Made by a program: the position numbers and the translations under genes. A stretch of 64,000 bases of DNA from Phycisphaerae bacterium RAS1 (GTDB taxonomy: Bacteria > Planctomycetota > Phycisphaerae > UBA1845 > Fen-1342): positions 922,942 to 986,941 of the forward strand of contig SMLU01000002.1 in assembly GCA_007859745.1 (NCBI GenBank), given 5' to 3'. Below are positions 51,547-63,991 of the stretch, piece by piece (positions within the stretch are counted from its first letter, which is position 1; each line of letters opens with the position of its first letter). The notes under the pieces are model-generated. The model saw nothing but the letters and a program-made list of their open reading frames with translations. It was not told where the DNA came from and did no database searches.

Positions 51547-51642
51547 CGGTTGGCACGCCGTTTGCTCGCTCTTTCAGTGTGCTCGGGCGCGCCGGCGGTC
51601 GGCGCGCCACGACCCTCAATACTGTAGCCAAAGGAGCCGAGC

Positions 51643-53506
51643 ATGGCAACGAATTCTGGAAAGCCGACGCTTCTGTTGAGGAATCTGGCGCTTGCTTGCG
51701 TGATTTCACACACCGCCGCCGCGTGGGCTGGCGGCTCAGCCTGCGTGGATGGAACAGGCGTGCGGGCTTGCGTGACGTGGAGCCTTCAGGTGAATCCGGT
51801 CCCGAATCAGAACTTTCGCATCACGTTCGATGCCACTGGCGAGCCGAACATCGAACTGCGGACTGGCGACGCTGGTTGGGAGGTCTACGCCGTCGAAGTC
51901 GTCGACGGCCAGGCGACGAACACCGTCGTCAACATCGCGTCTCTGACGATCGACCCGAGCTCGCCGTCGCAGAGCTTCACCGTCTCAATCAAGAAAGGCA
52001 GTGGCCCCGGCGCGGCGAACGTCGGCACCGTCAACCTCGACGCCGCAAGCTGGACCGGGCATTCGTCGATCGGGACGGGCTCGCACATCACCGGCGACCT
52101 GACCGGCCCGCTGACGATCAAGAGCGACGGCAACGGCGACGGCGGGGAGCTCTGGCTCATCGTCAACGGTGACGTTACATCCCCCTCGGCCATCAGCGTT
52201 CCAATTGTGAAGTACCTGCGCGTCAGCGGTGATATCGCGGGCGACCTCGACGTCACGGCGCAGCTCGACGGAATTCTGGAGTTCTACGGCAACGTTGGTG
52301 CCGATTCGGTGATCGTCGTGGAGGACTTCGGCGAAGGCGCGACGCTGATCGGAAACGACAAAAACTACACGTTCTCCGGGCGGCTGGAGCTCCCGAACGG
52401 AGTGCCGGCCGATGCCGGCGGCGTTGCGATTGGACAGGATATCGCCGGGACGATCGACCTGATGGACGCTGACATCCACGCGACGCTGAACTGTTTCTCG
52501 GTGACGTCGACCGGGCGCATCATCAATGGCGGAATCATCCGGTCGCCGGCGACAGTGGGAATCGGCGACACGGGGCATACGACCGCAACTCTGGCCGGCG
52601 AGGCGACATTCGCGGGAGTCGAATCGGGGGCGAACGTGTTCTTTGAGTGCAGCCACCTGGATGGGACGTTGACAATCGCGAGTGACGTGGCCGGCAATGT
52701 CCTCTTTGGCAGCGCTGGCATAGGCGCAAGCGGAGTCGTGCTCGTTGGCGGAGACGTCACTGCGACGGGAAAAAATCTGGTTGGAAGTCGACGGTCGCTG
52801 TCCGGATGACAGCAGCCTCGCGGGCTCGATCGTGATCATCGGCGAACTGGCGGGGCGAATCGGCATTTCCGGTTCTTTTTTCGACGGCGCCTCAATCGAA
52901 GTCGGCGCCATGGGTGAAAACGCCGCCGTAACGATCGACTATGACGGCTGGCATGACGGCGACGATTGGGAGGATGGCGCGGTGATCGTCATCGGCGAGA
53001 TCGCGTACGAGAATGACACGGAAGGCGTCAACACGCTCGACACGCGCCTGTGGGAAGTCAGCCCCTGCGTGGCCGACATGAACAATGATCATGCAATTGA
53101 CATTCTGGACATCAACCCGTTCATTCTCGCCGTCGCCGGTGGAACGGACTACGAAGAGGCGTGGCCCGGACTGGGACACTGGAACGGCGACGACGATTTT
53201 GTCGCCAACGCGCTCTTTCATGCTGACGTAAACTGCGACGGCCACGTCAACATCTCTGACGTCAACCCCTTCGCCGACCGGGTGAGCGCGGGTTGCTGCC
53301 AGCCGACATGCGGGGAATGCCCCGGCGACGGCTCGTCCGGCGGACCCGGCGAAGACGCCGAAGCGATCGCAGTTTGGTGGCTGGACAACGTGGCGACGGA
53401 AAACGAGGCCGCGCTACGCGCCGTCGCGGCGGCGATGGTGGATTACTACCAGGATCAGCCGGAGGCGGAGGCGTGGATGTTGATTCTGGAGGCGCTTTCT
53501 GAGTGA
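51643..53506 (+). pseudogene. Secreted beta-repeat protein with dockerin modules, frameshifted at A6
   Basis: The ATG at 51643 has AAGGAG 8 nt upstream and starts a signal peptide (LALACVISHTAAAWAGG). The 5' frame encodes a long beta-rich region with recurring short units (GDLTGPLTIKSDGNGDGGEL, VSGDIAGDLDVTAQLDG), ending prematurely at 52809. The +1 frame takes over after the six-A run at 52770-52775 (GGAAAAAATC) and continues EVDGRCPDDSSLAGSIVIIG. Two dockerin-type loops follow (DMNNDHAIDILDINPFILAV, DVNCDGHVNISDVNPFADRV), then a Cys-rich linker and an acidic helical tail to 53506. One extra A explains the break: mutation, slippage or sequencing error. The whole would be about 620 aa. Confidence 0.7.
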
Positions 53507-59953: not shown

Positions 59954-61273
59954 TTACGGGCGCGGCTCGGATGGGTCGCGGCTCTGATCAACCGGACTGG
60001 CGGCGATGATCCACACGGGGGCGATTCGCCCGAGCAGCATGGCCAGCATCAGCCACGCCATTCCGTATTGATATACATCGACGCGTTGCTGGATGCCGCT
60101 GGAGAGGTTGCGGCTGGTGACGGCGGCGGAGACGCCGGACGTGAGTCCGCCGCCGGCGACGGCGGATGAGGCGTCGAGGAAGGCGTCGGCGAAAGTGGGG
60201 GGCGGCTGGTAGGCGGTGGCGGTGAAATGCTCGATCACCAAAAGGCCCAGGGCGGTGAGCAGCACGAGCGCCAGCAGCGTGACGGCGAGCCGGACGGCGA
60301 TTGCGAAGGCGCGTTCGTCGCGCGTGCGGCCGGCAAATGCGCCGATGAGCAGAGCGGCGGCTAGGGGCCAGCCGAGGCCGCCGAGCGGCGATCCAGGGAA
60401 GCCGCCGACCAGCATGACGGCGGCCAGCACGACTTTGGTTCCGTCGGAAGCGGAGCGTTCGGAAAGGGCCTCGGTCTGCACGCCGGCGCCGGCGGCGCTG
60501 AAGACCTGAAGCGCGCAGCGCGAGAGACGCTCGCCCGAATGACGGGCGGCGAGCGAGTCGGGGACGGCGCCGCTCTCGCGCCCGCCGCGCGGCGATTCAA
60601 ACGCGGCCAGCAGCGCGGCGGCCAGGATCAGGAACAGGATCCACGATCCGAAGGTCACGCCTGTCGCGGCGGCGGATTGCAGGCAGCGTCGGCGCCAGGC
60701 GGCGAAGGGCATGATCCAAAGCGTCCAACCGGCGGCCGTCAGCAGGCCCAGCACGGCGATGAGCCACGCGAGCGCGCCGGCGGGGCGCTGCGGCAGCCAA
60801 CCGAACGAGAGGACGCCGGTGCTCAACGATTGTGTTGCATCAAGATGGGAAAGGGGGGCGGCTACGATCGCCAGGAGCAAGCATGCGGCTTGGCTGGTGA
60901 ATAGCGTGACAAGCACGAAGACGATTGCCAACAATGCTGGATGCGGCGCCGCGCGGAGATTCAGCAACGGCAGGCGATCTCGAAGCGCGGCGAGAATGGT
61001 GGAGATGTAGGCGATTGCTCCGGCCAGGCTCAGTGCGACGAGCACGGACCGCCCGGCGTCGGTGTAGGCGCGTTCCGCGGGATGGGTCATCAGGCCGCAG
61101 CCGACGACGGCGCTGATCGAATCGAAGGTGGATTGCCAGTAGTGACGCGCCCAGAAGAACTGCCAGTCGCGCGGATCGGTGAGCGTTGCCCACGGCTGAG
61201 CCAGGAGGAACGCACCCGCCCCGGTCAGCACGACGAGAACGCAGAAAAACAGGGCAGCGGGTCGGGAGAACAT
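59954..61273 (-). CDS. Divergent TrkH-type cation transporter
   Basis: 439 aa with about ten membrane helices. Pore-loop-like segments are FDSISAVVGCGLMTHP near residue 50 and FLDASSAVAGGGLTSGVS near 385; the latter keeps the filter-type GGL-x-S-G. The family motif GGxPGSTAGG appears as GGFPGSPLGGLG, and a C-terminal LMLAMLLGRIAPVWI matches the end of TrkH/KtrB proteins. Several filter glycines are replaced, so potassium specificity is uncertain. No TrkA/KtrA regulator adjoins it. It lies 91 bp upstream of neuC on the same strand and could be co-transcribed with it. Confidence 0.65.
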   Translation of the reverse strand: MFSRPAALFFCVLVVLTGAGAFLLAQPWATLTDPRDWQFFWARHYWQSTFDSISAVVGCGLMTHPAERAYTDAGRSVLVALSLAGAIAYISTILAALRDRLPLLNLRAAPHPALLAIVFVLVTLFTSQAACLLLAIVAAPLSHLDATQSLSTGVLSFGWLPQRPAGALAWLIAVLGLLTAAGWTLWIMPFAAWRRRCLQSAAATGVTFGSWILFLILAAALLAAFESPRGGRESGAVPDSLAARHSGERLSRCALQVFSAAGAGVQTEALSERSASDGTKVVLAAVMLVGGFPGSPLGGLGWPLAAALLIGAFAGRTRDERAFAIAVRLAVTLLALVLLTALGLLVIEHFTATAYQPPPTFADAFLDASSAVAGGGLTSGVSAAVTSRNLSSGIQQRVDVYQYGMAWLMLAMLLGRIAPVWIIAASPVDQSRDPSEPRP

Positions 61274-61359: not shown

Positions 61360-61435
61360 TGAATTGGGTGGGACGGGCGTCTCGCCCGTCCCGGCCACAT
61401 CAAGAACGGGCAACATGCCCGTTCCACCCGAGACG

Positions 61436-62329
61436 CTAGCGCCTGCGGCGCAGGGCGACGAGCATCATCGCCAGGGTCGCCAGCCCGGTTGAGGGCTCGG
61501 GGGTGATCGTGAACAATCCGAGCTGGCCCTGGACGTACTCGAAAGATCCGTCATGTTCGAAGGATCCCCAGCCGCTCAGCGACTGATCACCGACGTCACC
61601 ACTGCCATCGTACTGGATCGTTCCGCCAGTCAGGCGGACGCCGGCATTCGGGTCGGTCTGGAGGTTTGACATGACGTGAATACTGATCGTCGAGCCATCC
61701 GGGCTGAGCGTGCTTGAGCCCAGTTCCAGGCCGTCGCCGACGGCATCCACCGCGGGGGACTGCGTCCAGTTGAACCCGCCCGGCAGCGAAAACACGAGAA
61801 AGCTGTCCGCGGTGTACCAGCCCGGCCCCTGCGCGTTGAGCAGCGCGGCGCCGTTCTGGCGAATTTCTACTGTTTCACCCGGCAGCGTGGCGGGCACACC
61901 GGCAGCGACCGTCGTGACGTTCGGGTTGTTGCTGTCGGCGTTGTTCTGCGCGACGGTGTAATTCGAGGTGGATCCGTTGTTGAACACGACTCGCGTGGGC
62001 GTGCCGCGATTGGGATTGGAGATTCCGCCGGCGGTGTCCCAAAGGCGGACGCTTGCGCCGCCGGCGGCGTCCGCGGTGCCGCTGTAGCGCGTGTTCCACA
62101 CGCCTTGGCGGTAGTACTGGAAAGAGTAGGGTGTGTTGGCTTTTCCGCCGGTGATGGTGAGCCTTCCGCTCCAGGTGCCGGGCACGAACGTGTGGGTGCC
62201 GCCGGTGGGTGCGAAAGCGGATTGCACGCCGAGCGTCGTCAGCGCCAAGGCGCCGATCGTCCGCGCGGCGCGTGATCCAATTCCAGCCAAAGCGCTCCGC
62301 AGCCAGTTACGTCCGATTTTCGTGAACAT
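61436..62329 (-). CDS. PEP-CTERM sorted secreted protein
   Basis: 297 aa. The ATG at 62329 has AGGAGA upstream. The N-terminal region IGALALTTLGVQSAFAPTGG is a signal peptide. The middle is Asn/Thr/Gly-rich and beta-structured (GVWNTRYSGTADAAGGAS, GWYTADSFLVFSLPGGF). The C-terminus TPEPSTGLATLAMMLVALRR plus two basic residues is a clear PEP-CTERM. It is transcribed leftward from the region that also holds the sigma-54-driven small locus reading rightward. Confidence 0.8.
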   Translation of the reverse strand: MFTKIGRNWLRSALAGIGSRAARTIGALALTTLGVQSAFAPTGGTHTFVPGTWSGRLTITGGKANTPYSFQYYRQGVWNTRYSGTADAAGGASVRLWDTAGGISNPNRGTPTRVVFNNGSTSNYTVAQNNADSNNPNVTTVAAGVPATLPGETVEIRQNGAALLNAQGPGWYTADSFLVFSLPGGFNWTQSPAVDAVGDGLELGSSTLSPDGSTISIHVMSNLQTDPNAGVRLTGGTIQYDGSGDVGDQSLSGWGSFEHDGSFEYVQGQLGLFTITPEPSTGLATLAMMLVALRRRR

Positions 62330-62594
62330 GTCGCCTGTCTCCTGCGTTGGATTCTGCCCAGTCGCGGCGGACGCCGGTGTCCGCCTCACGGGGGAAAGCG
62401 AAGTTCTCGGGTGAATTGGGCGGGACGGCGAGCAACGGCATGGTCTGACTTGGACAAACGGTGCAGCATAGGTGTGACGGGCGTCTCGCCCGACAGTGCG
62501 GTGTCACAAACTGGCGACATGCCCGTTCAATCCTCCGCGCCGCTCCGATTGCCAGCCACATCCGATAATTTCTGGCCCGAATTGCACGAACACG

Positions 62595-62658
62595 GTGGGG
62601 AACGAACACCCAACTCTTTTCCCCACTTTCGGTAACTGCGTTCCCCACTTTTCCCCAT
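62595..62658. promoter_or_regulatory. Repeated GTGGGGAA/TTCCCCAC sites upstream of the sigma-54 promoter
   Basis: Copies lie at 62595-62602 (GTGGGGAA), 62619-62626 and 62641-62648 (TTCCCCAC), with a one-mismatch copy at 62651-62658 (TTCCCCAT). Spacing between the first three is 22-24 bp, about two helical turns. They lie 40-103 bp upstream of the -24 element, where enhancer-binding proteins act. They also lie between this promoter and the divergent PEP-CTERM gene. Confidence 0.55.
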
Positions 62659-62697
62659 GCAAGCGCTTTTTTCGAGCGCCACACGAGAAATGCAGTC

Positions 62698-62712
62698 TGG
62701 CACGCCCTTTGC
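62698..62712 (+). promoter_or_regulatory. Sigma-54 (RpoN) promoter
   Basis: TGGCACGCCCTTTGC matches the -24/-12 consensus TGGCAC(G/A)NNNNTTGC with correct spacing of the GG and GC elements. Transcription should start near 62724, about 55 nt before the small ORF at 62779. Confidence 0.75.
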
Positions 62713-62778
62713 CTTATGAGTCCCACATCCGGCGGCAGCCACACGAGGCCCGCACGAGGAAGCAAAAGGAGACGCGAC

Positions 62779-62940
62779 ATGCTTGAGTGGTTGAAACAGA
62801 TGATCGGGTTGCGAAACACCCGCGGCGAACGCGACGGCCCGCAATCGAACGCCCGCGTGCGATTCTGTGCGGTCGCCGTCCCGGCCCGACCGACGCGACG
62901 CCGCCCCGTCACGCTGATGATTCGCGAGGGCCGTGTATGA
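62779..62940 (+). CDS. Small protein driven by the sigma-54 promoter (53 aa)
   Basis: The ATG at 62779 has a strong AAAAGGAG 7 nt upstream, the best ribosome site in the region, which argues for real translation. The product begins MLEWLKQMIGLRNTRGERDG and is basic in its second half (PARPTRRRPVTLMIREGRV). The N-terminal 11 residues could be an amphipathic helix. No family was recognised. The stop overlaps the ATG of the next small frame (ATGA at 62937). The gene stands between the promoter at 62698 and the terminator at 63146. Confidence 0.6.
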   Translation: MLEWLKQMIGLRNTRGERDGPQSNARVRFCAVAVPARPTRRRPVTLMIREGRV

Positions 62941-63065
62941 CAGATGCGACAGCTCCCGCCGGGAGCACGAGTCTCCCGGGCGCGGCGGCGCCCGGCAGGC
63001 CCGTGCTCCTGGCACGGGGTTCAATCTTCCCGATGGCGGCAGTGCCTCCGAGCGCGGGGCGATAA
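62937..63065 (+). CDS. Possible second small coupled ORF (42 aa)
   Basis: ATG 62937 overlaps the preceding stop in an ATGA arrangement, typical of translational coupling. The product is Ala/Pro-rich and short (MTDATAPAGSTSLPGAAAP...). It stops inside the loop of a perfect 11-bp hairpin (GAGCGCGGGGC) at about 63053-63079. It could be a genuine micro-ORF or simply untranslated leader of a small RNA; evidence is only positional. Confidence 0.35.
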   Translation: MTDATAPAGSTSLPGAAAPGRPVLLARGSIFPMAAVPPSAGR

Positions 63066-63145
63066 GCCCCGCGCTCCGCCGCCGGGAAGTACGACCGGTC
63101 CGAAACGAGACGCGAAGACCCCCGAAGCTCTCTCACTCTCTCCAA

Positions 63146-63194
63146 GCCGCGCAGACCGACGCCCCCGGCTGCGCGGCGTCTCTTTTTTCTTTCC
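63146..63194 (+). terminator. Rho-independent terminator of the sigma-54 transcript
   Basis: GCCGCGCAG at 63146-63154 pairs with CTGCGCGGC at 63169-63177 (9-bp stem, 14-nt loop), followed by GTCTCTTTTTTCTTTC. With the start near 62724 this gives a transcript of about 470 nt. The 63195-63382 remainder shows only a weak 48-codon frame from 63289. Confidence 0.75.
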
Positions 63195-63382: not shown

Positions 63383-63991
63383 CTACGGATACACCACCGG
63401 CCCGAACCCGCACGCCGTCGGATTCGGATCCGTAAACGGCCCTCTCCCGTCGATTTTGATCCCCTCCGACGTCGCCGCATGCAGGTGCCGTTCGCTGCAC
63501 GCATGCGGCTCAGCCACGTGCCCGTTCGTGATCCGCGTCAGCGCGATGTGCGTGCCGGCGGGAAAGTTACCCACGGCCTTGTCCAGCACGACTTCCTGCG
63601 GCGCATAGCGGACGCTCACGCTGGCCCCCGCGCTGCGCCCCGCCGCGTCATACGCCCGAACGATGATCTCGTTGTTTCCTTCGCGCAGCCCGGCCACCGT
63701 GAATTCGACGAGGTACTGGTCGCCGGCGCTGCCGGTCGACTCGATCGGTGCATTCGCATCAACTTCCGGCCCGCCATTGAGGAGGTAGACCACGCGTGTC
63801 ACGCGGTCCGGCGCCGCTTCCATCGCGGCCTCAATGTGCACCATCGGGAACGGCACGGTGCTCACCGGGCCCGGAAAGGCAATGGTCAGTTCGAAGTTTA
63901 CGCCCAACTGGTTCTGCATGTCGCAGGTCAGCCCCAGGTTGGCGAGTAACAGCAGGAACCCGCCGGCGCACCGTAGTCGTGCACAGCACAT
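63383..63991 (-). CDS. Lipoprotein-like protein (5' end possibly beyond window)
   Basis: 202 aa from the ATG at 63991. The upstream codons are open to the edge of the window, so the true start could lie outside. The N-terminus GFLLLLANLGLTC fits a lipoprotein signal with Cys near residue 23. The middle resembles an Ig-like beta-sandwich (RVVYLLNGGPEVDANAP, LREGNNEIIVRAYDAAGRSA), a pattern seen in bacterial Ig domains that describe changes to an object. The C-terminus is His/Cys-containing (HACSERHLHAATSEGI). It is probably envelope-attached; function unknown. Confidence 0.6.
   Translation of the reverse strand: MCCARLRCAGGFLLLLANLGLTCDMQNQLGVNFELTIAFPGPVSTVPFPMVHIEAAMEAAPDRVTRVVYLLNGGPEVDANAPIESTGSAGDQYLVEFTVAGLREGNNEIIVRAYDAAGRSAGASVSVRYAPQEVVLDKAVGNFPAGTHIALTRITNGHVAEPHACSERHLHAATSEGIKIDGRGPFTDPNPTACGFGPVVYP

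Follow-up and report, generated by a model that had tools for sequence, protein, structure and literature searches.

The 993-bp (approximately 1-kb) intergenic region between the genes at 61436–62389 and 63383–63991 hosts a sigma-54 promoter match, an array of repeated sites upstream of it, two small ORFs, large hairpins, and a terminator-like end. We interpret this region, with moderate confidence, as a self-contained, activator-controlled sigma-54 unit that would produce a structured RNA of ~470 nt with a possible 53-residue peptide. The window analyzed here is the full 64-kb stretch of DNA from Phycisphaerae bacterium RAS1. All of the elements that an initial annotation had placed in the locus were recovered where it had placed them by sequence, repeat, and pattern checks.

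The region is flanked on the left by a PEP-CTERM-like secreted protein gene (61436–62389; TIGR02595 score of 15.5 bits against a cut-off of 16) and, farther out, a TrkH-like transporter gene (59954–61273), both on the minus strand. On the right lies a minus-strand gene whose function is not known (63383–63991), beyond which are rpoD and dnaG, also on the minus strand and named from their translations. A related palindromic intergenic sequence (GACGGGCGTCTCGCCCG ... ACATGCCCGTTC) appears twice on the left side, at 61363–61430 and at 62405–62530, and looks like a dispersed repeat of the lineage.

An exact sigma-54 promoter match in a genome that encodes RpoN

The plus-strand match TGGCACGCCCTTTGC at 62698–62712 had been described as a near-perfect RpoN promoter; it is in fact exact (TGGCACG-N4-TTGC), with the −24 GG and −12 GC elements at the right spacing (TGGCAC-N5-TTGC). 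Local dinucleotide shuffling of the 993-bp intergenic sequence yields a perfect plus-strand match in 0.045% of cases. Because C62712 is taken as position −12, the start of transcription is predicted near 62724. The initial annotation had made its reading depend on the presence of RpoN, and the genome encodes both RpoN (E value of 6.7e-53) and seven full-length sigma-54 activators, and hence at least one AAA+ activator to serve such a promoter.

Across the 5.5-Mb genome, the perfect sequence occurs 15 times, compared with ~4 expected by our own estimate from base composition, and about half of these sites precede gene starts; the promoter class therefore looks used in this genome. Many of the sites lie ~45–80 nt upstream of a ribosome site and gene, just as the one at 62698–62712 does. 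Perfect sites stand directly upstream of GroEL (L016), HypC (L011), and a possible pterin dehydratase (L009), as well as before the gene that succeeds an RtcR-like activator (L004), all of these names coming from our reading of the translations; in these four loci, the site falls around positions 1500–1515. The GroEL and HypC neighbors are in line with a published comparison of sigma-54 regulons, in which hydrogenase maturation and, in Planctomycetota as well as other groups, chaperones are among the enriched targets (PMC12316311). Two further sites, at L008 and L014, lie upstream of paralogous secreted proteins. The latter is the second perfect site of the window, TGGCACGCCGTTTGC at 51551–51565, ~80 nt before a secreted-looking protein encoded at 51643–52809, and the arrangement at L008 is paralogous to it. 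When up to one mismatch is allowed, 132 matches are found against 122 in a reversed control, hardly any excess, so that only the perfect sites carry weight.

The match at 62698–62712 could also be accidental, or a relic, in a long intergenic region that holds no active unit. The ~4 chance matches expected among the 15, one observed site lying within a gene (L002), and the lack of conservation described below would all fit such an origin. We nonetheless judge it unlikely, given that a perfect promoter, a unique array, a ribosome site, a contrast in folding, and a terminator follow one another in a single order within 600 bp.

An array of repeated sites upstream of the promoter

The initial annotation described three or four sites spaced 22–24 bp apart where first repeated, and we find three exact copies of TTCCCCAC and one partial copy. 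Site 1 is inverted (62595–62602, minus strand, reading GTGGGGAA on the plus strand), sites 2 (62619–62626, within AACTCTTTTCCCCACTTT) and 3 (62641–62648, within AACTGCGTTCCCCACTTT) are on the plus strand, and site 4, also on the plus strand, is a 7/8 copy, TTCCCCA(T), at 62651–62657. The start-to-start steps are thus 24, 22, and 10 bp, and the array sits 40–105 bp upstream of the −24 element. These three are the only exact copies of TTCCCCAC in the 64-kb window, where 1.6 would be expected, and none of 20,000 dinucleotide shuffles of the intergenic region placed three of them within 60 bp. In 6.4% of the shuffles, however, one 8-mer or another appears three times inside 60 bp, and repetition of an 8-mer is therefore in itself less unusual than the TTCCCCAC trio. 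The repetition of sites upstream of the promoter therefore exceeds chance.

A sigma-54 promoter with upstream activator sites is a well-supported reading of this arrangement as judged from sequence. The claim that the sites are those expected for an enhancer-binding protein holds as to distance, which is normal for an enhancer, and as to their excess over chance; from these we infer a link to an activator, one for which an MraZ-type regulator is an alternative. Most NtrC-type activators bind a close palindrome, and the half-sites of the array are direct and inverted monomers. To our knowledge, TTCCCCAC matches no described activator site. The genome-wide search for such clusters that the initial annotation had proposed returned no other TTCCCCAC cluster upstream of a TGGCAC element, whether here or in the 113 further genomes of the order. 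Activator sites usually, though not necessarily, recur before other targets or the activator gene; in this genome, no second cluster precedes a sigma-54 site, and TTCCCCA was not found near any of the seven activator genes.

On the minus strand, the array reads TGGGGAAAAGTGGGGA...AAAGTGGGGA, which raises the alternative that its repeats are bound by MraZ, or by another regulator of the direct-repeat type, acting on either the sigma-54 promoter or the divergent PEP-CTERM-like gene. For Mollicutes, (AAAGTGKN3)3 has been published as the MraZ core (PMC5282649). Sites 2 and 3 each contain an exact AAAGTGG (AAAGTGGGG on the minus strand), the TGGGG of sites 3 and 4 are spaced 10 bp apart, and the genome has an mraZ gene. 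GTGG boxes 10 bp apart, moreover, precede mraZ in most of the 24 cases viewed, including the gene of this genome. Upstream of the family's mraZ genes (L140–L162 and L115), such boxes are mostly present close to the −10 region and ahead of the start codon, which amounts to a conserved arrangement of MraZ boxes. Set against three direct AAAGTGK/TGGGN repeats at 10-bp intervals, our locus has two AAAGTGG cores 22 bp apart and one TGGGG 10 bp off; the 22-bp step between sites 2 and 3 and the inversion of site 1 speak against this reading, as both break the period. The genome's own mraZ boxes are GTGGCA rather than GTGGGG, and we estimate that TGGGG-N5-TGGGG spacing would arise ~40 times in the genome by chance. 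We consider an MraZ-type array rather improbable.

A predicted transcript with an open 5′ half and a folded 3′ half

The transcript predicted to extend from the promoter divides into two parts. Its 5′ half (62724–62940) is less folded than shuffled sequences (z of +2.07), and the segment that follows the stop codon of the 53-aa ORF (62941–63100) is far more folded (z of −6.25). The latter contains two plus-strand hairpins, one at 62958–63013, absent from the initial annotation, with 26-nt arms that are 85% complementary and an adjoining one at 63026–63089. The 11-bp hairpin of the initial annotation is real (63050–63060 paired perfectly with 63066–63076) but is merely the tip of the second, larger structure. 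The clear terminator claimed for the locus is borne out by a terminator-like plus-strand stem at 63146–63177 followed by the U-rich tail GTCTCTTTTTTCTTT (63146–63191 in all; z of −3.2 for the stem), which gives the predicted length of ~470 nt. A simple terminator scan skipped this stem because a 5-nt gap precedes the T run.

The 5′ half carries a ribosome-binding site, AAAAGGAG (GGAG; 62764–62771), 7 nt before the ATG at 62779 that opens a 53-aa ORF (62779–62940, MLEWLKQMIGLRN...IREGRV), a candidate peptide. A 42-aa ORF (62937–63065) overlaps it by 4 nt (ATGA), with all three features on the plus strand. The ribosome site, the 53-codon ORF, and the overlap are thus as originally described. The 42-codon ORF does not look like a gene: its codon score is negative, it falls in the hairpin region, and it is probably not one. 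The coding status of the 53-aa ORF is ambiguous. Its GC content by codon position (0.68/0.55/0.77) resembles that of real genes of the window. Its codon score, a measure that separates genes from off-frame windows poorly here, is matched or undercut by 6.6% of true gene windows and matched or exceeded by 14.5% of open off-frame windows. No credible homologue of the peptide was found in 114 genomes of the order, 392 of the phylum, GTDB contigs, or viral contigs, the searches giving Arg-rich chance matches or nothing. We also observed that the sequence around the ribosome site, AAAAGGAGACGC (62760–62775), is complementary at 14 of 16 positions to the 3′ end of the transcript, GCGTCTCTTTTTT (63176–63191), which could mask the start or could be chance.

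These features bear on whether the RNA itself is the product, that is, whether the locus encodes a small regulatory RNA under sigma-54 control comparable to Qrr, GlmY, or CrcZ, with its ORFs present by chance. The strong structure and terminator would suit such an RNA, as would a peptide that has no homologue, and the sigma-54 promoters that drive known sRNAs are laid out like the one at 62698–62712. We regard it as a possible but doubtful alternative, however, since a strong ribosome site is correctly spaced before the ATG, the ORF half is under-structured as in an mRNA, and the locus has no match in Rfam at either the strict (gathering score) or a relaxed threshold. That both products coexist, in a dual-function RNA switched by sigma-54 through a dedicated, single-target activator and combining a lineage-specific basic 53-residue peptide with a structured hairpin tail, appears very improbable.

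Distribution of the locus

The initial annotation looked to relatives for conservation of the ORFs and sites, and neither is conserved at family, order, or phylum distance, the distances compared. Among 60 relatives, the DNA of the locus matched only as fragments of 28–39 bp, and neither a sigma-54 site nor an array adjoins the one fragment match that was inspected (L033); the hairpin region, searched for as a dispersed repeat, gave short weak matches only. The neighboring gene at 63383–63991 served as a synteny anchor in a single relative of the order (G027), where the examined flanks of its homologue contain neither TGGCACG nor TTCCCCAC. The absence of the locus and array at family distance is weak evidence.

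The array pattern has eight matches in other species, three of them with plausible sigma-54 promoters, all in Proteobacteria, and two of those three are palindromic. None of the matches in viral contigs carries the −12 part. The palindromic TGGGGAAWWTTCCCCA-type sites lie before sigma-54 promoters in Methylomonas (L084, 566–666) and Aromatoleum (L090, 1104–1214) and may be where an as yet unassigned activator binds.

Proposed model and relation to known systems

In the model that we favor, an NtrC-type activator, one of the seven encoded in the genome, would bind the TTCCCCAC array ~65–130 bp upstream of the start and remodel RpoN–RNA polymerase at 62698–62712, giving a transcript of ~470 nt from ~62724 to ~63190. 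The open 5′ half would present the strong ribosome site and possibly a basic 53-residue peptide, and the two large hairpins and the terminator of the 3′ half would stabilize the RNA. Counting against this unit are the lack of a peptide or DNA homologue in the collections searched and the presence of monomer sites instead of a close palindrome. Because the searches turned up no counterpart of the peptide, we see a believable but unremarkable regulatory unit restricted to the species, probably a sigma-54 unit whose array is specific to the locus and whose product, be it peptide or RNA, is an orphan. Its mechanism is classical and known; its content is putative. If the locus is transcribed as predicted, the sigma-54 regulon of this planctomycete-like group, so far little studied, would gain an orphan peptide or small RNA, and the single-target promoter could serve to find the binding site of one activator.

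Sigma-54 promoters with NtrC-type enhancers resemble the locus in their perfect −24/−12 elements, repeated upstream sites, and a genome that encodes both RpoN and activators, and differ from it in that their sites form a tight palindrome rather than an array of monomers. For the PrsK/PrsR–RpoN control of PEP-CTERM genes, a published motif search reported TTTACA, and in Proteobacteria only (Haft 2006, PMC1569441). The locus shares with that system an adjoining PEP-CTERM-like gene (61436–62389) and an upstream motif ahead of a sigma-54 promoter, but its promoter is directed away from the adjoining gene. Its motif is also not the published one, and all seven activators score below the PrsR cut-off (TIGR02915; best score of 391 bits against 502.6), which argues against such control. 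In Methylomonas, Azoarcus, and Aromatoleum (L084, L088, and L090), TTCCCCA half-sites precede TGGCAC-N5-TTGC as they do here; L084 and L090 carry the palindromes and L088 direct runs, and the downstream genes are unrelated, so these sites likely belong to another regulator. The Qrr, GlmY/GlmZ, and CrcZ sRNAs share with the locus a stand-alone intergenic sigma-54 unit, a structured RNA, and a terminator-like end (on sigma-54-dependent sRNAs, see PMC10162802, PMC7073468, and PMC6296734), whereas the RNA predicted here is longer, at about 470 nt, belongs to no sequence family, and carries a ribosome site and an ORF.
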